NCBI RefSeq assembly: GCF_001190925.1
Contig: NZ_CP011072.1
Span: 2,914,001-2,978,000 of the forward strand
Origin: Azoarcus sp. CIB
GTDB lineage: Bacteria; Pseudomonadota; Gammaproteobacteria; Burkholderiales; Rhodocyclaceae
Direction of reading: 5' to 3'
Length of the DNA: 64,000 bases
Both the position numbers and the translations under genes were made by a program. This document shows, one piece after another, positions 485 to 11,269 of the stretch. The stretch's first letter is position 1; every line of letters starts with the position of its first letter. The notes below the pieces were generated by a model that saw only the letters and a list, made by a program, of their open reading frames with translations, did no database searches and was not told where the DNA came from.

Positions 485-1450
485 TCAGTACTCTTCGGGC
501 AGCAGCAAGGTCGTGACGCTGCGGTCCGCTTCAGTGATGACCCACAACGTATTGGTGCCGTAGCCTGCGCTCGGCCGCGCCGGGTCGATCGGATACGCGG
601 CGAATATGCGGCTGTCGCCCAACCGCACGGCCTCGTCGTTCTGCTCGGGTTCGGAGCTCACACCCCAATCGCCTCGTAGGTAGGCGCCGAGGCAGCGGTC
701 GACGAGATCCGGATAGCGCTCAAGGAGCCGCTCGACCCCTGCCGTCATCACCACGCGACCGAGCTTGAACAAGGGCTTGGACAGTGCCCGCGCGGGCGGC
801 AATGCTTCGGCGATCGCCTGGATTTGTCCCGCGGCGTCAGCAGGCAGGTCGTCCGCCTCGAGCGTCAACACACCCTGCTTGACGGCCATCGAAACGATGT
901 CCTGGAACCGCTCCTCCAGCGTGACGCGAATGCCGCCGACCTTGCCGAGCGGTGGATACCTGAAGCGGCTCAGTGGCATGCAGAGCCGATCGCCCAGACC
1001 GTCGAGCAGCGGATCGCGCCAGTGATCGAGGAGCGGCAGCGGGCTGAGGTCCCGGATCAGGGCCCACAGTTGGGAGCGCGGCACCTCGCGCTCATCACTC
1101 ACCAGCCAGGCGGCTCCCCCCGGCCGGTCGAGTTGCACCAGAACCGGGTCGTAGAGCCACGTGTGTGTCAGTGGTCCGAATAGGTTCCGGTCAGGGAAAC
1201 GACCTGTGAACTTCTGGAGCCGCTCCGGCTCCGGGACGAAGACCGTGTGTCGCGCTCCCTCATCGGCCAGGGTGAAGGTGGCCTCCCCCGCCTGGAGCAG
1301 GCCGCCCTGATCGCAAGGCACGGAGAAGGCGGACATGAACTGCAGCACGGAGGTGTCGCGTCCGTACAAGGACAGCAGCAACAGTTCGCCATTTTCACCG
1401 CGGACGCAGGCATCCGCGTACAGATCGGAGAAACCCTCGATCGACAACAT
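485..1450 (-). CDS. ICE hypothetical protein (321 aa) with plasmid-type C-terminal domain
   Basis: The ATG at 1450 has a strong AGGGAGG site about 9 nt upstream. I do not know a function. The last 100 residues (about 220-321) end in a segment with the motif WVITEADRS followed by TTLLLPEEY. From memory this resembles a small domain found on plasmids and ICEs and sometimes mislabelled as a restriction subunit. The first 200 residues are soluble-looking with no transmembrane or obvious catalytic motif. It probably shares a transcript with the 41-codon ORF directly upstream, whose leader carries the pseudoknot element at 1675-1719. An ICE accessory role is inferred from position only. Confidence 0.6.
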   Translation of the reverse strand: MLSIEGFSDLYADACVRGENGELLLLSLYGRDTSVLQFMSAFSVPCDQGGLLQAGEATFTLADEGARHTVFVPEPERLQKFTGRFPDRNLFGPLTHTWLYDPVLVQLDRPGGAAWLVSDEREVPRSQLWALIRDLSPLPLLDHWRDPLLDGLGDRLCMPLSRFRYPPLGKVGGIRVTLEERFQDIVSMAVKQGVLTLEADDLPADAAGQIQAIAEALPPARALSKPLFKLGRVVMTAGVERLLERYPDLVDRCLGAYLRGDWGVSSEPEQNDEAVRLGDSRIFAAYPIDPARPSAGYGTNTLWVITEADRSVTTLLLPEEY

Positions 1451-1465
1451 GATGGGTGCCTCCCT

Positions 1466-1591
1466 TCATTGGACGCCAATCGCCCATGGCGATCGGTTTT
1501 CGGGTAGGGAGGCGAACCGGACGCGGGACAAGCGCCTGGCGTCCACGCCCGCGAGCGTGGCTTCGAGGTTGGTGAAATCGATGTTTTCCAT
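1466..1591 (-). CDS. Small ORF, 41 aa, in ICE operon
   Basis: This short frame begins at an ATG (1589-1591) with a GAGGAGC ribosome binding site 8 nt upstream and ends 15 bp before the start of the 321-aa gene. The peptide starts MENIDFTNLEATLAGVDARR and is hydrophilic, with no recognisable domain. Good translation signals, tight spacing and a structured leader upstream suggest it is translated. It could be a leader peptide for the downstream gene or a small ICE protein. I recognise no family. Confidence 0.45.
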   Translation of the reverse strand: MENIDFTNLEATLAGVDARRLSRVRFASLPENRSPWAIGVQ

Positions 1592-1674
1592 GGCAAAGCT
1601 CCTCATGAAATGGGGAGATGCCGCGCCCCAGCGGGGAAGCGGATCTTCCCGATGGGGGTGGATGAAGGACGAAT

Positions 1675-1719
1675 GCCCCGGGCCCCGAAGGGCCGTCGCT
1701 GTTTCAGGGGCTGACAGCG
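1675..1719 (-). ncRNA. Pseudoknot leader element, copy 1 (before 41-aa ORF)
   Basis: Read on the minus strand: stem CGCTGT/ACAGCG closes the loop CAGCCCCTGAA, then hairpin GGCCC-TTCG-GGGCC, then CGGGGC. The loop GCCCC is exactly complementary to the trailing GGGGC, giving an H-type pseudoknot. The stem bases differ from every other copy while pairing is kept. It lies 84 bp before the ORF start. A second hairpin (GGGAAG/CTTCCC, 1634-1650) follows. Confidence 0.75.
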
Positions 1720-1751
1720 CGCGGCGTCGACGCGATGGCGTCGCCGGAAAA

Positions 1752-2093
1752 CTACGTCTGGCAAACTGGCTGAGGCACTGCCCCGCGAGCGGGTAGCCAC
1801 ACCCGTCCGTTGTAACTCACGCAGGCGACCTGCTGGCCGCAACCGTCGAGGACTTGTCCGCCCACCCAATTACCGCCGCCGACTTGGTGCTCGACGATGA
1901 AGCGGCGGACAACACGGCTCGCGTCTCCAAGGGATGCCACCGGCGCCAGGCGATTCCGGACGCCGAGAAGTGTTTGCGCGGGGTCCTGACCGAGGTCCGG
2001 GTTACCCGCCGTCATTAAGGCGACGCGAAGTGGCTGACGTTGCGCAAGCTCGTACTCGTCCGCCACACGGTCGAAGTTTCGCAATGTGTGCAT
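1752..2093 (-). CDS. ICE hypothetical protein, 113 aa
   Basis: The ATG at 2093 has a CAGGAGCG ribosome binding site about 6 nt upstream, and the frame stays open for 113 codons. The product is soluble. Its C-terminal half contains a Gly-rich stretch (EHQVGGGNWVGGQVLDGCG) followed by a VSYNGRVW strand, suggesting a small beta-rich fold. No signal peptide or known motif is seen. It lies between two other leftward ICE genes, 109 bp downstream of the 207-aa gene, and the next pseudoknot leader begins just after it. I do not recognise the family. Confidence 0.5.
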   Translation of the reverse strand: MHTLRNFDRVADEYELAQRQPLRVALMTAGNPDLGQDPAQTLLGVRNRLAPVASLGDASRVVRRFIVEHQVGGGNWVGGQVLDGCGQQVACVSYNGRVWLPARGAVPQPVCQT

Positions 2094-2201
2094 GATGCGC
2101 TCCTGAATGTCCCGTCGGTCGCCGCACCCACCGGGCGTGCAACCCGACGGGTGATGAGAGAGGACAATGGAATCGCGGCAGCACGGCCGCCCGAGGAGAA
2201 A

Positions 2202-2825
2202 CTACGAATCGCTGATGCGCCGGACCGGAAGCAAGAGCAACTCGCCCTGCGCCAGCGCCGACATCAGCACCTTGTCGCTCGGCACACGCACCGACCGCGC
2301 GATCGCATCGAAGAACGGCGACTGATCGGTGAGATGGTCTGACAGAAGGCGCGCCAGGTCGGTCAGCACGTGGAGGACGGCCTCGCCGGAAGTGTCGAAG
2401 TCATGCGTGTCCTGCAGTCGCTCCGCAACGTGCGTGAGGAGCGCGGCGCCCATCGGAAACAGGGCCTCCGGCCAATCGATTCCGCCATCGGTCCCGATCT
2501 GGATCTCCATCTGGTCGGCACCCGCTTCGGGAAGCAGTACGCACAAGCGATTCAGGGTACTTGCGAGCGCGTGGTTGAAGTTGGCCCGAAGCACTCGGAG
2601 GGTCGACCAGAACGTCTCCACCTCGGCGGGCGCCCGGCACAACAGCGGCCAGACGACCTCCGTCCGCGCGAGCGGACCCGGGTGGCACAGCAGCGTGGTC
2701 TGAAGATACTCAAGGCAGCCCGCCCGCCACTCGCGATCCGTCGTCGAGCCGTTGCGGCCCGCGCGCGACAGTGCGGACACGTCACGGTGTCGCACGAGCA
2801 CCCACATATCGATTTCCTGCCGCAT
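2202..2825 (-). CDS. ICE hypothetical protein, 207 aa
   Basis: The frame is open further upstream, but I chose the ATG at 2825 (MRQEIDMWVLVRHRD) because it has a GGGAG site 7-8 nt upstream and the sequence before it is Arg/Cys-rich and non-protein-like. The product is soluble, mildly acidic and probably helical, with Leu-rich segments in the second half and no motif I can name. It sits between the methyltransferase-like gene (3000-4097) and the 113-aa gene on the same strand. A role in ICE maintenance is inferred from context only. Confidence 0.5.
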   Translation of the reverse strand: MRQEIDMWVLVRHRDVSALSRAGRNGSTTDREWRAGCLEYLQTTLLCHPGPLARTEVVWPLLCRAPAEVETFWSTLRVLRANFNHALASTLNRLCVLLPEAGADQMEIQIGTDGGIDWPEALFPMGAALLTHVAERLQDTHDFDTSGEAVLHVLTDLARLLSDHLTDQSPFFDAIARSVRVPSDKVLMSALAQGELLLLPVRRISDS

Positions 2826-2999
2826 CTCGTTCTCCCAAAGAATGATAGATGCCTGGAAGACAACACAAAGGCGAGCTCGCCCCCGAAGAGGGAGCCCGTT
2901 CGGGTTGCAGTGGTGGTGGTCAAAGCGCCGGCGCCGAGGCCAGCAATGCGAGGCGGAGCGGCGCTCCGCAAGACCCACATGCAGTGCGTTTGCCCTGCC

Positions 3000-4097
3000 C
3001 TATTGGATCGTGACGATGGACCCGAACCCGGGCCCTGGGGTGAAGTCGATCCCGCGTATCACGGGCACGAACCGATCGGTAAGAATGACGGTTTCACTGA
3101 CGGTCCCATCCGGGCCCTCCGAAAGCTCGACGGAGCGGACCTTATCCTTGTACGTGTCGCCCTTGATCAACAGGGTGCGACCGTTGCCGGCGGTCACGAT
3201 TCCGTGAGCATGACCGGCCGCCAGCGCCAAAGCCAGGTGCCACCGCCCCATTGCAGTCAAGGGCGGACGGTGGGCGCCTTTCGTAACACCGAAGTGAGTC
3301 CGGAACAGCGGCCAGAGACTATGCGCATGCAGTCGCGCCACCTCGGCCGCGAGTTGGGCGGCGTCGATGCGGACCGCGTGAAAGCGGCCCTCCCCACCTG
3401 CAATCTCCGGAACGGCGTACGGCTCGTCGGTCCAGCACTCGGGCAATACCTGATCGAATGCTTCGCCCTTACCGGCAGCGATGAGCGCCGACACGGTGCG
3501 CGATTCCGGCCGATCCGAACGGCGTCGAACGCCGAACACCACGCACTGCTTGAACTGCTGCTCCGGGGCCATGTGGAAGCGAATGCGCTCGAAGTTGCGC
3601 GCGAGAAGGCCTGCGAACTCCGCGTCGAGCACGTAGTAGGGCACGATGAGAACGAGGACGCCTCCGAACGCAAGGGTTTGAAAGGTCCGCCGGAAGAAGA
3701 TCTTCTCGAGTCGGTCCGGCCCTTTGTCGCCGGTCTGCGCCCGGTCCGCCACCGCGTCGCCATAGGGCGGATTCAGAAACAAGAGACCAATGGACCCGGG
3801 TGTTACGACGACGTCCTGGATGTCGGCATGAATCGCAAGGTCCAGGACGGATTTCGCATGCCAGGCGCGCTCGGCATCGAACTCGACGCCGAATGCCTGA
3901 ACGGCGGCACCGCATCCAGTCAGCGCTTCCCTGACTTGGTGGAGCGCAGCGCCTTCGCCGCAGCACGGATCCAGGATCCGTAGCGCATTGCCTGCTACAT
4001 CGAGGGCGGCGACAATCCGCTCGAGCGTCGCTTGGTCGGTCGGGTAGTAGCCGTTCTTCACGAAATTGCGCGCCAGGCGCGGGAATATCAGGGCCAT
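3000..4097 (-). CDS. DUF6094-type DNA methyltransferase-like protein of the ICE
   Basis: I chose the ATG at 4097 (MALIFPRLARNFVKNGYYPT) because of an AGGAGG site 6 nt upstream; the longer frame runs into the structured leader. The product is about 365 aa. The early motif LDPCCGEGAAL is an SAM-binding motif I, and LLFLNPPYGD is the NPPY catalytic motif of N6-adenine/N4-cytosine methyltransferases. The arrangement fits the DUF6094 proteins seen on ICEs and plasmids. The C-terminal half lacks a restriction domain. It may protect the element from host restriction or mark its own DNA; the substrate cannot be read from sequence. Its leader carries pseudoknot copy 2 (4170-4212). Confidence 0.75.
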   Translation of the reverse strand: MALIFPRLARNFVKNGYYPTDQATLERIVAALDVAGNALRILDPCCGEGAALHQVREALTGCGAAVQAFGVEFDAERAWHAKSVLDLAIHADIQDVVVTPGSIGLLFLNPPYGDAVADRAQTGDKGPDRLEKIFFRRTFQTLAFGGVLVLIVPYYVLDAEFAGLLARNFERIRFHMAPEQQFKQCVVFGVRRRSDRPESRTVSALIAAGKGEAFDQVLPECWTDEPYAVPEIAGGEGRFHAVRIDAAQLAAEVARLHAHSLWPLFRTHFGVTKGAHRPPLTAMGRWHLALALAAGHAHGIVTAGNGRTLLIKGDTYKDKVRSVELSEGPDGTVSETVILTDRFVPVIRGIDFTPGPGFGSIVTIQ

Positions 4098-4169
4098 GGA
4101 ACCTCCTCGGAGTCGGCGGGACGCATTGACCCTCGACGGGCCGATCGCGACCCGCTGGTTGTGGATGAT

Positions 4170-4212
4170 GTCCCGGAGCGAGATGCTCGGTCCTGTTGCA
4201 GGGACTGACAGG
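4170..4212 (-). ncRNA. Pseudoknot leader element, copy 2 (before DUF6094 gene)
   Basis: On the minus strand: stem CCTGT/ACAGG with loop CAGTCCCTGCA, then hairpin GAGC-ATCT-(C)GCTC, then CCGGGAC. Here the loop reads GTCCC and the trailing strand GGGAC, so the pseudoknot helix changed on both sides relative to the GCCCC/GGGG(T) copies. The first and second stems differ from the other copies too. It lies 73 bp before the gene. The rest of the 4098-4611 gap holds only the terminator below; I see no gene there. Confidence 0.75.
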
Positions 4213-4559
4213 CTGATGAATCTGGCAACACGCGCCACCGGCCGATAGCCGGACGGCCGCAAACGGATTTCCATCGTCGGTCTGCCTGCAGCAGGCCGAC
4301 GATGGGAACCCGCTGGTTCCGCTTGGATGGGATTTGAACGATACCTTCGTCACACCCGCGGGCCTCAAGACGCGTTGCCCTGAGACCCCGTGGCTCGGAT
4401 GCGAGGCACCCCAGTGGAAGGCGTGGGCGCCGATGAAAGGGCGCGCGGGGAAACCGCCGACGCAAATGCCGCAACACATCGGGCGTGTTGCTGCCCAGTT
4501 GTCGATGGAGCCCTAGCAGGCTTTCCGAATCACGCGCGTAGCCTGACGCACTGACCCGA

Positions 4560-4582
4560 TTCGGAAAGCCCGCGCGCGGGCT
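4560..4582 (-). terminator. Rho-independent terminator after DUF3275 gene
   Basis: On the minus strand, AGCCCGCG/CGCGGGCT forms a strong GC hairpin followed by TTTCC, 30 bp after the DUF3275 stop. It overlaps one arm of a longer inverted repeat, GCTTTCCGAATC (4520-4531) with GATTCGGAAAGC (4558-4569), which could form an alternative structure. Confidence 0.55.
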
Positions 4583-4611
4583 GGCGGCCGGAGTCGGCCG
4601 CGGGGATTGTT

Positions 4612-5259
4612 CTACGATGCGTCCGCCTTCGCGGCCAGGTAGGCCCGATACCGATCGGATTCCTCCGGATACCAGACCTGCTCTTCCGGCACAAAGCCGT
4701 ATTGGAGTCCGGACTTCAGCCGATTGCGCTGCTCCCGGAAGCGCCGGCGGTCATCGATCGTCGGATCGAGCTTCACCGGTTGGCGCGCCGCGACCAGCCC
4801 GTGGAGCTCGTCGCCGAAGAGCGCGAGATCGGGCGATTCGTCCGGATCCGTGGTGGGCAATGCCGGCGGAGCCGCGCCCTCCTGTCCTCGTTCGGGCGCA
4901 CCGCTTCCCTCCAACTCGCCATTCCCAGCACCCGGACGCGCAGTCTGCGCCAAGACCTCGTCAGCGGGATCGGGTTCCATCGGGGCCTCGGGCAAACTCC
5001 TTTCCGTGCCGCTTTGAACGTGCAGATCGGCGAGTCGGGCGCGGATCTCCAACACGAGCCGACCGTTGCTGGCATAGGACCAGGGGAAGATGCGCTGAAT
5101 GATATAGCGCCCCGTGTAGCTCCCTTCCTCGAACTGATCGAGGATCGGGTCCTTGACACGAAACTCGCCGATATCGGTCAGCAGATCGCCGACACAGAAC
5201 GGACCATTGGCCCCCTTGATGCGCTTGATGTTCAGCGTGCCTTCGACAGTGATGCTCAC
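4612..5259 (-). CDS. DUF3275 family ICE protein
   Basis: I chose the GTG at 5257-5259 (VSITVEGTLNIKRIKG) because a GGAG site lies 9 nt upstream and DUF3275 proteins begin at this strand; the longer open frame covers leader RNA. The product is about 215 aa. The first 100 residues are the conserved part, with segments NGPFCVGDLLTDIGEF, VKDPILDQFEEGSYTG and the strand GRLVLEIRARLADLHV. A low-complexity Pro/Ala/Glu linker follows, then a charged C-terminal segment. DUF3275 is found almost only on ICEs and plasmids and its function is not established. Its leader carries pseudoknot copy 3. Confidence 0.75.
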   Translation of the reverse strand: MSITVEGTLNIKRIKGANGPFCVGDLLTDIGEFRVKDPILDQFEEGSYTGRYIIQRIFPWSYASNGRLVLEIRARLADLHVQSGTERSLPEAPMEPDPADEVLAQTARPGAGNGELEGSGAPERGQEGAAPPALPTTDPDESPDLALFGDELHGLVAARQPVKLDPTIDDRRRFREQRNRLKSGLQYGFVPEEQVWYPEESDRYRAYLAAKADAS

Positions 5260-5474
5260 GATCTCGATCTCCGAATGCGGTATCGGAGGCCCGCCCACCG
5301 AGGGGGACGAACGCCCCCGATGGGTGGTTGAAAATCGGACACCGAACGGGTCGAACCATCGGTGCGTGCGGTACAGGAGGGCCACCAACATGGTTGGTGG
5401 CCCCGGCTTTGAAAGAGGCACCGGTATTCCGGACCGGTACGGGATCGAAGCGGACAGGCAAGGCCCGACCGAGG

Positions 5475-5517
5475 ACCCCAGGCCTGACGGCCGTCCCAGT
5501 TACAGGGGCTGACTGGG
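5475..5517 (-). ncRNA. Pseudoknot leader element, copy 3 (before DUF3275 gene)
   Basis: On the minus strand: stem CCCAGT/ACTGGG with loop CAGCCCCTGTA, then hairpin GGCC-GTCA-GGCC, then TGGGGT. Loop AGCCCC can pair with GGGGTC. It lies 215 bp before the DUF3275 start, the longest spacing of the set. The intervening leader contains a further inverted repeat, GGCCACCAAC/GTTGGTGGCC (about 5380-5402). I see no other gene in the 5260-5602 gap. Confidence 0.75.
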
Positions 5518-5602
5518 CGCACCACGCACGTTTTTTGCCGAAACGTGCAAAACGGGTGGAAACCCACGAAAGGCTCCGAGCTTGGAACGGCTGATTGGGT
5601 GA

Positions 5603-6109
5603 TCACCCGCTGGTGCCGGTGCGCTCCAGGTGAGCGCTTTCGGCCGCTGGCTGAACATCCGTTGTCTTCGGGCGTTCGTAGACCGTTTGGCCGTCCACCT
5701 TGACGTGCGTCAGCAGTAGCAGCCGGCCCTTGATGATGACTCGCGGTTCCTTGCCGGGCGCACCGGTTTCGGAATCCTTGACGTCGGCATAGTAGAGATG
5801 TGGGTAGATGTCACCCACGCGGAATGACACAAAGACCTTGCGGTCGTTCTGGACATCCTGCTTGAAGCGTTCAACGAGCTCGGCACACTCGGCACCGACC
5901 ACTCTGAGGTCAAAGTACGTGTACGCCGGTTCCGTGACGGACCCGTGAACAGCGTTGATTGCGCATGCGAGAAAGGGCTCGGCTCGACGGCCACCACCGC
6001 GCGGCTTCACCCACCGGACCCGGCCCAAATAGCCGCATCCCTTGGTATGCAGGTCGAAATGCTCCTTCTCGGGAGCGGTCTTGGAAGCAACTTGCGTGGA
6101 TTCGGACAT
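5603..6109 (-). CDS. STY4534 family ICE replication protein (DUF3577)
   Basis: I chose the ATG at 6109 (MSESTQVASK) because a TGGAGA site sits 7 nt upstream; the frame upstream of it is leader. The product is 168 aa. The conserved run HFDLHTKGCGYLGRVRWV, then PFLACAINAVHG, YTYFDLRVVGAE and RLLLLTHVKVDG match the DUF3577/STY4534 family, first named from Salmonella pathogenicity island 7 and present in many related ICEs. The pattern of short beta strands recalls single-strand DNA-binding OB folds, which is my inference. Its leader has pseudoknot copy 4 and a long AT-containing hairpin. Confidence 0.8.
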   Translation of the reverse strand: MSESTQVASKTAPEKEHFDLHTKGCGYLGRVRWVKPRGGGRRAEPFLACAINAVHGSVTEPAYTYFDLRVVGAECAELVERFKQDVQNDRKVFVSFRVGDIYPHLYYADVKDSETGAPGKEPRVIIKGRLLLLTHVKVDGQTVYERPKTTDVQPAAESAHLERTGTSG

Positions 6110-6153
6110 GACAGTCTCCAGACGAAAAAAATCGGGAGACCACACATCCCATG

Positions 6154-6176
6154 ATCGGGAAGTGAATCTTCCCGAT
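6154..6176 (-). repeat. 9-bp hairpin shared by two ICE leaders
   Basis: ATCGGGAAG/CTTCCCGAT with a 5-nt loop lies between pseudoknot copy 4 and the DUF3577 start. The copy 1 leader has the same hairpin in shorter form at 1634-1650, preceded by a similar C-rich ACCCACCC-type run. The two leaders therefore share sequence beyond the pseudoknot and are probably duplicates. Confidence 0.6.
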
Positions 6177-6196
6177 CGGGTGGGTGATACAAACGA

Positions 6197-6239
6197 AACC
6201 CCGGACCTGACGGTCGTTCCGGTTACAGGGGCTGACCGG
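6197..6239 (-). ncRNA. Pseudoknot leader element, copy 4 (before DUF3577 gene)
   Basis: On the minus strand: stem CCGGT/ACCGG with loop CAGCCCCTGTA, then hairpin GACC-GTCA-GGTC, then CCGGGGTTT. Loop AGCCCC pairs with GGGGTT. It lies 87 bp before the DUF3577 start codon. It is nearly identical in sequence to copy 5 at 8272-8314, which lies on the other strand. Confidence 0.75.
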
Positions 6240-6259
6240 ACACAGTACAACGGCCGCAT

Positions 6260-6772
6260 GGCCGAATACTCGTGACGATTCTACGCCAAGTGCCCGCGCC
6301 GTCAACGGGGCAACGCCATCGAGCCAATGGCAGCATGCCACCGCCTCAGGAACAAGCACCAGCCGAGTTGCGCCCGGACAGTGACGCGACGACTCGAGCG
6401 CACCTTCAGCCTGACCAAACCGCCTTGCATTTCTTCGCTTGATCAGCGACATTCCCGCGAGGGGACGGATCTCATCCGCCCGACAGCAACCCTTCGCATA
6501 CGATCGCGACCAGCCTGCTCGGCTGCACGACCTCTCGCATCTGCAACAGCACGCTAATGCGCCGGATTTGATGCCGCCCGCGCGTGTTTGATGCCCCAGA
6601 CAGGGGGCTGGTGCCTACGGCGGTCCCATGCTGTGGCGCCCCCAACGTCTGGAAGGCCCGCCGCGCCAGTTGTTCTCCCCGATAGTGCTCCTCCGCTTGC
6701 CGCGCTTCACACGACTTGGCGCCATCCACACTGCAATCACATGACATTCCCCTGGGCATGGAGGTAAGGGTT
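6260..6772. other. Divergent intergenic region of the ICE, no gene supported
   Basis: This stretch separates the leftward ICE block from the rightward one. Open frames on both strands are short or overlap the leader, and none has a convincing ribosome binding site with protein-like content. It must hold promoters for both directions and is a reasonable place for an element control site. I see no clear iterons or AT-rich origin. Confidence 0.4.
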
Positions 6773-7093
6773 ATGAACGTCGTGCACATCAACACCCATC
6801 CGGCCCGTCTGCGACCGGGCGAGATGGCGATCCACCGCGAGCACGGATGGGTCGAGATCCTCGAACGCGCCGGAACACTGCTACGAATACGATGGATCGA
6901 CCACTCATTAGTAGCCCCCGACGCCCTCGAACCCGACGAGATCGACGGCGAACTCCTGACCGTCTGGGAGGACTGGGTCGGGTGCGACAGCTTGAAGCCG
7001 ATGCCAAGACCGTCAATCCGCGGCGAATCGGTGGCTCGAATGCCCGTTGACCTTGCGGCCCGACGAGCTCCAAGGGGGGCGCCAGCGACATGA
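6773..7093 (+). CDS. ICE hypothetical small protein, 106 aa
   Basis: The ATG at 6773 has a GGAGG site 8 nt upstream. The first 60 residues (PGEMAIHREHGWVEILER then LLRIRWIDHS) look like a small beta-barrel of the KOW/SH3 kind, loosely like the start of CarD-type proteins; this is a weak likeness only. The C-terminal third is Arg/Ala/Pro-rich and may be disordered. It precedes the KfrA-like gene on the same strand. I recognise no family. Confidence 0.45.
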   Translation: MNVVHINTHPARLRPGEMAIHREHGWVEILERAGTLLRIRWIDHSLVAPDALEPDEIDGELLTVWEDWVGCDSLKPMPRPSIRGESVARMPVDLAARRAPRGAPAT

Positions 7094-7188
7094 GAAGTCT
7101 GCGAAACCGGACTCGCCAGGGCCACAAGCAGCGCCCCACCCCACCGCTGACCGGGCTCACCTCGATCGGGGTCATGGGCGCTTGATTC

Positions 7189-7227
7189 ATACCGTACCGT
7201 AACCTATCGTACGTAACGTATCGTACT
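7189..7227 (+). promoter_or_regulatory. Iterated CGTAC operator before kfrA-like gene
   Basis: The 40 bp before the kfrA-like ribosome binding site contain ACCGTA-CCGTA (7191-7201) and two exact copies of TATCGTAC (7205-7212 and 7219-7226) 14 bp apart, around a CGTACG palindrome. Plasmid KfrA is known to bind repeats at its own promoter, so an autoregulatory operator is likely. Confidence 0.55.
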
Positions 7228-7238
7228 GGAGACGCGAT

Positions 7239-8120
7239 ATGCCTCGGGAAGCCAGCATCACGTACGCGCAGGTGGCGGCCATCGCCGATGGGATCAAGGC
7301 CGCCGGCGGGAAGCCCACCCCACGCCAAATCCGCGAGCGTCACGGCAGCGGCAGCCTCGGCACCATCCATAAGCTGTTCCAACGATGGGAAGGCAACCAG
7401 CCGCCATCCATCGAAGCAGGTTCAGCCCTCCCCCCTGCGCTGCAACGGACGATTCTCGACTTCGTGACGCAGGAACGGGCAACGGCTCGGGCCGACCTCG
7501 ACGCCAAACTGTCCGACATGCAAGCGGCCGCCGACGAGCTCGCCGCCGAGAACGAGCGCCAGAGCGGCCACATCGAGACGCTGGAAAGCGCCCTGCAGAC
7601 GTCTCAGGAAGAGAAGGCAGCGCTCGCCGGAAAAATCGAGCAGATGGAGACCGATCTCTCCGCCGCAAGAGACGAAGCCGCCCGTGAGCGCCACGCAGCC
7701 GAGGCCACCCGCACCGAGTTAGCCAAGGCACATGTCCGACTCGACACTATCCCCGTCCTCGAAAAGGACAACGAGCGGCTACGAAGTGCGGTAGACGCCG
7801 AGCGCGACGCTCGCACCAATGCCGAACGTCTGGCCGCGATCGCAGAGGCGAAGGCCGCAGGCCTCAGCGAGCGTCTGGCGGATAGCCAAGCCCGCCACAC
7901 GCGTGAAGTGGCGAACCTCGACAGCCAGCTACAGGACCAAAAGCAGCGAAACACGAACCTCGAGGCTGATCTGTCGGAGATGCGCAAGGAGTCCCGCGAC
8001 CTGGCCGCTCGCCTCGCTCAGGCGACAGGCGAGCTGGAAGCGCTGCGCACTCAGAACGCCGGCCATCTGGATGTCATCAAGGGCTTCACCGCGCAAGGCA
8101 CCGTAACGGGCGCGTCGTAA
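7239..8120 (+). CDS. KfrA-like DNA-binding coiled-coil protein
   Basis: The product is 293 aa, starting at an ATG with a TGGAGA site 8 nt upstream. Residues 1-60 contain the KfrA-type winged/HTH region (AAIADGIKAAGGKPTPRQIR, then ERHGSGSLGTIHKLFQRWEG). From about residue 75 to 280 the sequence is an uninterrupted heptad-like coiled coil rich in Ala, Glu, Arg and Leu. This is the architecture of KfrA of IncP/IncW plasmids, a nucleoid-like protein and autorepressor that aids plasmid stability. Here it probably organises or stabilises the excised ICE. The iterated CGTAC sequence upstream is the likely operator. Confidence 0.8.
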   Translation: MPREASITYAQVAAIADGIKAAGGKPTPRQIRERHGSGSLGTIHKLFQRWEGNQPPSIEAGSALPPALQRTILDFVTQERATARADLDAKLSDMQAAADELAAENERQSGHIETLESALQTSQEEKAALAGKIEQMETDLSAARDEAARERHAAEATRTELAKAHVRLDTIPVLEKDNERLRSAVDAERDARTNAERLAAIAEAKAAGLSERLADSQARHTREVANLDSQLQDQKQRNTNLEADLSEMRKESRDLAARLAQATGELEALRTQNAGHLDVIKGFTAQGTVTGAS

Positions 8121-8271
8121 AGGTCCAAGCGGCCGACGCTGACGTTGTCGTGCGCACGGGGGCCACTCCTTTGCCGGCAACCGTCGACGGAGAACCTGAC
8201 CTGGCAATCGACACATTGTGAAGCGGCCCCTTGACGAGCCGGCGTATGGCGCCTACGAATATATTCAGCGT

Positions 8272-8314
8272 CCGGTCAGCCCCTGTAACCGGAACGACCT
8301 TCGGGTCCGGGGTC
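8272..8314 (+). ncRNA. Pseudoknot leader element, copy 5 (plus strand)
   Basis: On the plus strand: stem CCGGT/ACCGG with loop CAGCCCCTGTA, then hairpin GACC-TTCG-GGTC, then CGGGGTC. Loop AGCCCC pairs with GGGGTC. It lies 64 bp before a 49-codon ORF (8379-8528) and is the only copy on this strand. The tetraloop differs from copy 4 (TTCG versus GTCA), as expected for a structural loop. Confidence 0.75.
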
Positions 8315-8378
8315 AGCCTCAAGATTCATGTCCATCTCGGTGGGATACGCCTCTCCGTAATTTTTCGAAGAGAGACCG

Positions 8379-8528
8379 ATGTTCTCGTACTACCCCCCGC
8401 CTTCCGGCTCCCTCCCCGAGCGCCTCTCCTGCGGCCCTCCCTATCCTGAGGCCCTTCAGGTACCCACTTACATCAAGGATCGCGCCACGAAGGTGGGCGA
8501 CACCGCGGCAGCATCCCGTCTTGGGTAA
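8379..8528 (+). CDS. Short ORF (49 aa), possibly a truncated gene, behind leader copy 5
   Basis: An ATG with a GAGAG site 7 nt upstream opens a 49-codon frame starting MFSYYPPPSGSLPERLS and ending in TAA. It has no recognised domain. All other pseudoknot copies precede ICE genes, so this may be a small gene of the same set or the 5' remnant of a larger gene lost by deletion. The next 260 bp contain only inverted repeats. Confidence 0.35.
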   Translation: MFSYYPPPSGSLPERLSCGPPYPEALQVPTYIKDRATKVGDTAAASRLG

Positions 8529-8792
8529 TTCCGGGACTTGCCAAACGACGATCGTGTCGGTATTTTTCTCTCGTCTCAAAAGCGCTGCGCACGCCTTGAG
8601 ACGTGGCGGGGACGCCTCGCTCTCTCGCTTCGCGCGACTCAATCGCTCATTTCCTTGCTCGTCAAGCGGCGCTTTTCGCCGCTCTGACTTCGTCTCGTCC
8701 TGATTCCCCGCCTTGCGACCGCTGCAATCGCCGTCGGCCGGCCTTGGCATGCATCGACTATTCGGACAACGAACGCCAGCAAGGAGAAACAG
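8529..8792. repeat. Intergenic region with two inverted repeats
   Basis: CGTCTCAA (8572-8579) pairs with TTGAGACG (8595-8602), and AGCGGCG (8665-8671) pairs with CGCCGCT (8677-8683) around CTTTT. Base composition is less GC-rich than the flanking genes. Neither hairpin has a good T-tract. I see no gene here. Confidence 0.45.
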
Positions 8793-10975: not shown

Positions 10976-11052
10976 TGGGGCGACATACCGGGATCGAACC
11001 GGTGACAACTGGAGCCACAATCCAGTGCTCTACCAACTGAGCTAATGCCGCC
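10976..11052 (-). tRNA. tRNA-His (GTG), integration target
   Basis: On the minus strand the cloverleaf has acceptor GCGGCAT/ATGTCGC, anticodon stem CTGGA/TCCAG with loop TTGTGGC (anticodon GTG), an encoded G-1 opposite C73, and encoded CCA (10976-10978). G-1 is diagnostic of tRNA-His. It is the last gene of the three-tRNA operon and its 3' end faces the integrase gene. Confidence 0.95.
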
Positions 11053-11092
11053 ACTTTCAGACTGCAGAAATTCTACAGTCAAAAACCTTTAC

Positions 11093-11169
11093 TGGCCTGC
11101 CCGACAGGAATCGAACCTGTAACCCCCGGCTTAGAAGGCCGGTGCTCTATCCAGTTGAGCTACGGGCAG
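11093..11169 (-). tRNA. tRNA-Arg (TCT)
   Basis: On the minus strand the acceptor CTGCCCG pairs with CGGGCAG, discriminator G, encoded CCA. The anticodon arm CCGGC-CTTCTAA-GCCGG gives anticodon TCT. It lies 40 bp upstream of tRNA-His on the same transcript. Confidence 0.95.
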
Positions 11170-11192
11170 ATCCCGCGGGCATCGGGGTTAGC

Positions 11193-11269
11193 TGGTCGGG
11201 GTGGAGGGATTCGAACCCCCGACATCTTGCTCCCAAAGCAAGCGCGCTACCGGACTGCGCTACACCCCG
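11193..11269 (-). tRNA. tRNA-Pro (TGG)
   Basis: On the minus strand the acceptor CGGGGTG pairs with CACCCCG, discriminator A, encoded CCA. The anticodon arm CTTGC-TTTGGGA-GCAAG gives anticodon TGG. It is the first gene of the tRNA operon. The promoter should lie in 11270-11340, divergent from dksA. Confidence 0.95.

Follow-up and report, generated by a model that had tools for sequence, protein, structure and literature searches.

A conserved pseudoknot RNA ahead of ICE genes in Azoarcus sp. CIB that shares the architecture, but not the sequence, of radC RNA

The window analysed here, a stretch of 64,000 nucleotides of Azoarcus sp. CIB (positions 2914001-2978000 of a single 5.26-Mb contig), carries five copies of a small pseudoknot RNA; covariation and orientation give good support to its fold and to its position in cis. 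With moderate confidence we propose that each copy may be the 5' part of a translational leader, lying ahead of a covered ribosome-binding site, through which genes of an ICE would be controlled. ICE is used here as a label for the neighbourhood of a conjugation module, each such region being a presumed single element.

Copies, fold and distribution of the pseudoknot RNA

A reading made from the sequence only had placed five copies of one layout in the window, and all five were recovered at those places with the helices as described (Table 1). Its description was corrected in two respects: the genome holds seven copies, and stem 1 is usually of 6 bp. The motif CAGYCCCTGNAAC occurs five times in the window, all sites being exact in a search that allowed one mismatch, against 0.47 expected and at most 2 in shuffled sequence; this count, together with the base pairing across the alignment described below, led us to reject a chance origin of the copies. 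The 15-base core GTCAGYCCCTGNAAC has seven exact sites on the contig, five within the window and two upstream of it at 2897144 and 2900293, that is 16.9 and 13.7 kb ahead, one of which leads a gene with a RadC domain. Allowing one mismatch adds four sites in the genome, which equals the count for the reversed-pattern control. A covariance model, R1, was limited to 18 copies of equal length because MAFFT put no gaps in their alignment (A2), and the pseudoknot was left out of it. At E up to 0.001, R1 finds the same seven copies in the genome and no others, with E of 8.1e-19 to 3.7e-7 for those in the window; the copies at 8270, 6197 and 5474 are included in its seed, and those at 1674 and 4169 are outside it.

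Table 1. Features of the window discussed in the text, with positions counted from its first nucleotide.
Feature	Position	Strand	Basis or remark
Pseudoknot RNA copy 1	1674..1720	-	R1; leads 41-aa ORF and 321-aa gene
Pseudoknot RNA copy 2	4169..4214	-	R1; leads DUF6094; pseudoknot GTCCC/GGGAC
Pseudoknot RNA copy 3	5474..5518	-	R1; leads DUF3275, 214-nt gap
Pseudoknot RNA copy 4	6197..6241	-	R1; leads DUF3577
Pseudoknot RNA copy 5	8270..8314	+	R1; leads 49-codon ORF
321-aa gene	485..1450	-	Pfam: no match
41-aa ORF	1466..1591	-	behind copy 1
DUF6094 gene	3000..4097	-	
DUF3275 gene	4612..5259	-	
DUF3577 gene	5603..6109	-	
49-codon ORF	8379..8528	+	behind copy 5
Predicted SD-covering hairpin, copy 1 leader	1592..1622	-	folding
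Predicted P3 hairpin, copy 1 leader	1626..1657	-	folding
Possible SD-covering hairpin before DUF3275	5269..5289	-	by eye, not folded
Predicted hairpin covering SD and AUG of DUF3577	6104..6149	-	folding
Predicted P3 hairpin, copy 4 leader	6153..6177	-	folding
Sigma-70-like promoter upstream of copy 4, TTGACG-16-TAGAAT	6278..6305	-	scan

The earlier claim that compensatory change in all three helices marks a conserved RNA fold is borne out by alignment A5, which contains 65 R1 matches, 60 of them distinct, and keeps a few poor rows (L212:12931, L145:1462). Among the distinct matches 98.4% of the base-pair cells are paired, and all three helices show compensatory changes. Pairing reaches 96.9% in stem 1, where five of six pairs change on both sides, and 99.6% in stem 2, where all four do so. 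The pseudoknot is paired in 99.3% of its cells, with both-side changes in three of its five pairs, although it is absent from R1; the R1 sequence profile nevertheless favours its letters. When the partner columns were shifted by one to three positions, pairing fell to 18.5-52%. Pseudoknot counts from our first set of loci are biased, because the structure screen used there demanded a pseudoknot fitting the loop letters, and the figures given here are those of A5. At the outer pseudoknot pair G-U predominates, making up 43 of the 57 standard pairs. In matches from beyond Aromatoleum the two pseudoknot strands vary in step, to CTTC/GAAG and CCTC/GAGG in L209, TTCC/GGAA in L066 and CCC/GGG in L210, while the frame CA-NNNNN-TGNA of the stem 1 loop stays constant.

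Among the genomes sampled the RNA is rare and mainly Betaproteobacterial. Within Aromatoleum, the 15-base pattern occurs in 14 of the 16 other genomes of the genus and the reversed control in four, some of the 14 matches being unstructured (for example L021 and L024). For the order, R1 at E up to 0.001 gave matches in 10 of the 399 genomes searched, four of which we judged solid by sequence (G000, G147, G256 and G277), and a search of 274 genomes of the class was positive for the Azoarcus genome alone. A pattern scan of contigs returned at least 120 stretches, mostly chance matches; 14 loci passed the structure screen among the matches listed, and 12 were kept after L114 and L165 had been removed by hand. 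The RNA was found in MAGs assigned to Dechloromonas, Thiobacillus, Rhodocyclaceae, Hydrogenophilales and other Betaproteobacteria, and in one called Gammaproteobacteria. A scan of viral sequences picked up 18 stretches, all of which lacked the full structure.

Genes led by the copies and their ribosome-binding sites

A start codon with a Shine-Dalgarno sequence (SD) lies within 330 nt downstream of 44 of 54 copies, and 10 have none in that distance. By a stricter rule (ATG with an SD at 60-145 nt, opening at least 60 codons), 33 of 51 copies have such a start downstream, and none of the 51 has one upstream on the opposite strand; the copies face genes, as the sequence-only reading had held when it described them as leading genes of an ICE. 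The genes led are those for DUF3577 (7), DUF3275 (6), DUF6094 (5), RadC (3), the 321-aa family (4, one a fragment) and a 124-aa ORF (1). The last, used for L011:6288, is probably the wrong choice, the SD-led ORF at that place having 77 codons. These families account for 26 of 42 copies, a figure in which six of the seven copies of the Azoarcus genome match themselves because their own genes are the references; without those seven it is 20 of 35, one of which (L210) served as a reference, yet is DUF3275 by Pfam. In two relatives, L038 and L059, a start matching that of the 41-aa ORF opens a frame of 338 codons, and translational coupling or a frame change is therefore possible at this locus. 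By eye, the start of the 49-codon ORF resembles that of the RadC ORF of L011, and it may be a remnant.

Between the pseudoknot and the gene, a loose text match to the pattern of a further hairpin, P3, was found in 38 of 39 leaders, a few of its placements being doubtful; the spacer before it has a median of 16 nt and is 65% pyrimidine. Beyond P3, an arm complementary to the SD (anti-SD arm) matches the SD of its own leader more closely than it matches those of others. In a set of 66 leaders whose SD segments are distinct (82 leaders in an earlier form of the test), the pairing energy is -14.0 kcal/mol against -10.8 kcal/mol for permuted pairs (z -11.3), and none of 2000 permutations was as strong. 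The effect is weaker in 65 ordinary ORFs, some genes led by the RNAs being among these controls: the values are -11.1 against -10.0 (z -3.8, 0 of 2000). The predicted occupancy of the SD is only slightly raised, at 0.80 in the leaders against 0.70 in ordinary genes (p 0.035); by group, p is 0.051 for radC leaders and 0.33 for the others. Folding covered the leaders of copies 1, 2, 4 and 5, L011:3139 and L011:6288. Compared with shuffles, leaders fold better for copy 4 (z -4.1), L011:3139 (z -3.4) and L011:6288 (z -3.7), with a lesser effect for copy 1 (z -2.1); those of copies 2 and 5 fold no better than shuffles (z -0.95 and +1.09).

Upstream of the copies, promoter-like sites precede 10 of 35, copy 4 included, compared with 2% of mononucleotide shuffles, and a scan of the region as a whole showed no excess (2 sites against 1.4 expected). 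At 40-60 nt upstream of many copies (for example L066, L103, L160 and about 6246-6264 of the window), just ahead of stem 1, there is a further hairpin of variable sequence that often ends in a GCC-rich linker.

Relation to radC RNA and to other leaders before DUF3577

Identity with radC RNA, which had been named as a candidate, was rejected on the failure of the covariance models in both directions. No Rfam family matches any copy of the window at its gathering score; the radC RNA model, RF01754, finds nothing around the window copies at E up to 10, nor around the other two at E up to 5, and R1 in turn misses all four radC RNAs that this genome contains. The latter are genuine members (L041-L044, 4953317-5055787), with 82.7-122 bits against a family score of 40 bits that none of the seven copies reaches. 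The conserved radC loop (for example GAUCUUCAA) is absent from the copies, in which the loop is CAGYCCCTGNA (as RNA, CAGYCCCUGNA against nCGAUCUUCAA in radC RNA), and the hairpin is longer in radC RNA in this comparison. We know of no mechanism described for radC RNA, which is regarded as a candidate regulatory RNA.

The suggestion was all the same a good lead, because the two RNAs have the same architecture and lead orthologous genes. Both consist of a stem of 6 bp with a loop mostly of 11 nt, a hairpin and a strand that pairs with the loop, and both are found in several copies in ICEs, ahead of mobile-element genes that include DUF3577, RadC and the 321-aa family. A scanner for this layout of stem, loop, hairpin and loop-pairing strand recovered it, as we read its output, in 23 of 34 radC loci, 19 of them with an 11-nt loop. 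In an alignment of 28 radC cores (A6), the four core pairs of the pseudoknot are formed in 111 of 112 cells; three of these pairs vary on both sides, and a fifth pair is broken in 12 of the 28 cores. In this alignment the counts are informative for the pseudoknot and stem 2 only, because its rows were chosen by the stem 1 pattern. The bases concerned are unpaired in the consensus printed by cmscan, and the Rfam annotation may include the pseudoknot unprinted. The radC RNAs lead DUF3577 (6), RadC (5) and the 321-aa family (1), together 12 of 29 loci, a comparison that omits 5 of the 34 loci for their unclear orientation; for L227 the strand taken was probably not the right one. In the Azoarcus genome the genes led by the two RNAs are 40% (DUF3577), 50% (RadC) and 33% (321-aa family) identical. 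A different leader with the same architecture stands at orthologous genes. This genome has two conjugation modules with a TIGR03744 ATPase, at 2.885 and 4.954 Mb; the pseudoknot RNA is found near the former, and radC RNA near the latter and up to 5.056 Mb. G277 likewise has both RNAs, about 1.5 Mb apart.

Our literature search for radC RNA by name found no paper, most subscription papers being outside its range, and no title or opening of an abstract among the matches listed for ICE, pseudoknot, leader and Shine-Dalgarno or for structured RNAs with radC concerned the present motif. PMC2864571 includes a table that lists radC as Proteobacteria, RF01754. Term searches of the accessible portions of papers on ICEclc-type elements (PMC9286271, PMC7423338, PMC13393423) gave nothing on RNA leaders, and the words conjugative and integrative are absent from the accessible portion of PMC11109978.

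DUF3577 is present in 15 of 274 genomes of the class and 17 of 250 of the order. In the 420 nt before 43 DUF3577 loci the scanner gave a match at 12 and none at 31. The 12 comprise seven radC RNAs, the pseudoknot RNA in L266 and L280, and single matches in L262, L290 and L287; L271 has radC RNA before DUF3577. The match in L262, with loop CGGATCGGGAA and pseudoknot GGATCG/CGATCC, scores 21, L290 scores 16.8, and L287, at 13.3, is at background level. Because the background of the scanner is high in GC-rich DNA, where 8 of 595 segments reach 16 and 2 reach 18, single matches such as L290 are leads only. L255 has no match in the 420 nt just before DUF3577; its CGGATCG hairpin, which is of the L262 type, lies some 0.7 kb ahead of that gene and leads a 118-aa ORF. 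Forms with longer loops and a similar layout of stem, hairpin and pseudoknot were noted by eye in L258, L260, L261 and L275-L279; these, and the forms in L253 and L254 read in the same way, were excluded from the counts. Twelve such leader loci of DUF3577 clusters gave no Rfam match at gathering score.

A proposed leader mechanism and its alternatives

We propose that each copy would form the 5' module of an mRNA leader that acts in cis on a gene of the ICE. The module comprises stem 1 with its 11-nt loop CA-NNNNN-TGNA, a short hairpin, and a strand pairing with the five middle bases of the loop; it is followed by the pyrimidine-rich spacer, the predicted P3 hairpin and an anti-SD arm able to cover the SD, and sometimes the AUG. 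With the SD covered the gene would be silent, and the SD would open when the pseudoknot module either provides a standby site that catches the 30S subunit or protein S1, or binds a factor of the ICE. The equivalent device in related ICEs would be radC RNA. We infer that the leaders are transcribed, that the SD is switched by standby or by a factor, and that the led genes are co-regulated; as the same module heads all seven loci, their proteins may be made together. The view of the sequence-only reading that one regulator or signal controls these genes together is plausible. For the anatomy of the leader, tisB of E. coli is the nearest worked analogue that we found: according to PMC7708055, its ribosome-binding site is sequestered, and 30S and S1 need a 5' pseudoknot in order to bind at a standby site that lies upstream. 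That source describes a single toxin mRNA with an antitoxin sRNA and a different spacing, unlike the several ICE genes here, and binding of 30S or S1, a feature of tisB, is for the pseudoknot RNA a proposal by analogy.

The main rival, possible if somewhat doubtful, is that an ICE-encoded protein or a small ligand binds the pseudoknot, as in an autoregulatory leader or a riboswitch, with no standby step; the genes would thereby be tied to the programme of the element. Unpaired CA and TGNA loop letters conserved next to freely varying pairs would suit such a site, as would the presence of one leader type per region in the Azoarcus genome and in G277. Pseudoknot riboswitches that act on the SD, of the preQ1 type and others, share with our leaders a compact pseudoknot upstream of it. 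They differ in that the pseudoknot RNA has no Rfam match and no known ligand, and leads varied mobile-element genes rather than one pathway. No ligand or protein candidate was identified, and a metabolic theme is absent among the led genes.

Were the copies instead divergent radC RNAs, members of RF01754 missed by the Rfam model, the shared layout and the orthologous genes would fit; with neither model finding the RNAs of the other and the conserved loop letters differing, we consider this unlikely. Transcription attenuation or antitermination, in which 3' hairpins with T-rich stretches would form a terminator overridden by the pseudoknot, is more improbable. Several leaders (copy 4 and L209:12305, for example) have T-runs beyond the anti-SD arm, and others (such as L103 and L025) have none; a terminator scan of 1400-8700 gave 5 sites against 5.3 expected, none of them in these leaders, and this explanation leaves the SD matching unexplained. 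That the copies are DNA-level sites, as protein targets or single-strand hairpins, would fit their location in a conjugative element and is very hard to reconcile with the predominance of G-U at the outer pseudoknot pair, with copies that face genes and with the SD coupling.

Returning to the translational leader, ICEs of this conjugation type may have a superfamily of interchangeable pseudoknot leaders, comprising radC RNA, the pseudoknot RNA and further candidates such as those with loop CGGATCGGG in L255 and L262, which would act as one device on a common platform of P3 and SD hairpin to translate many element genes at once; we advance this tentatively, and if true it would constitute a translational regulon of a mobile element. 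The occurrence in one genome of a second RNA, with the radC architecture in other letters and at orthologous genes, shows that the conserved part is the pairing and a few loop letters. The comparison with radC RNA suggests translation as the level at which ICE core genes with no known function are controlled.

Between the upstream copies and the window, genes for EAL-domain, SRAP and type I restriction proteins are found at L011:6909-17562. Shortly past copy 5, three tRNA genes lie in tandem at 10979-11269 of the window, a possible integration region.
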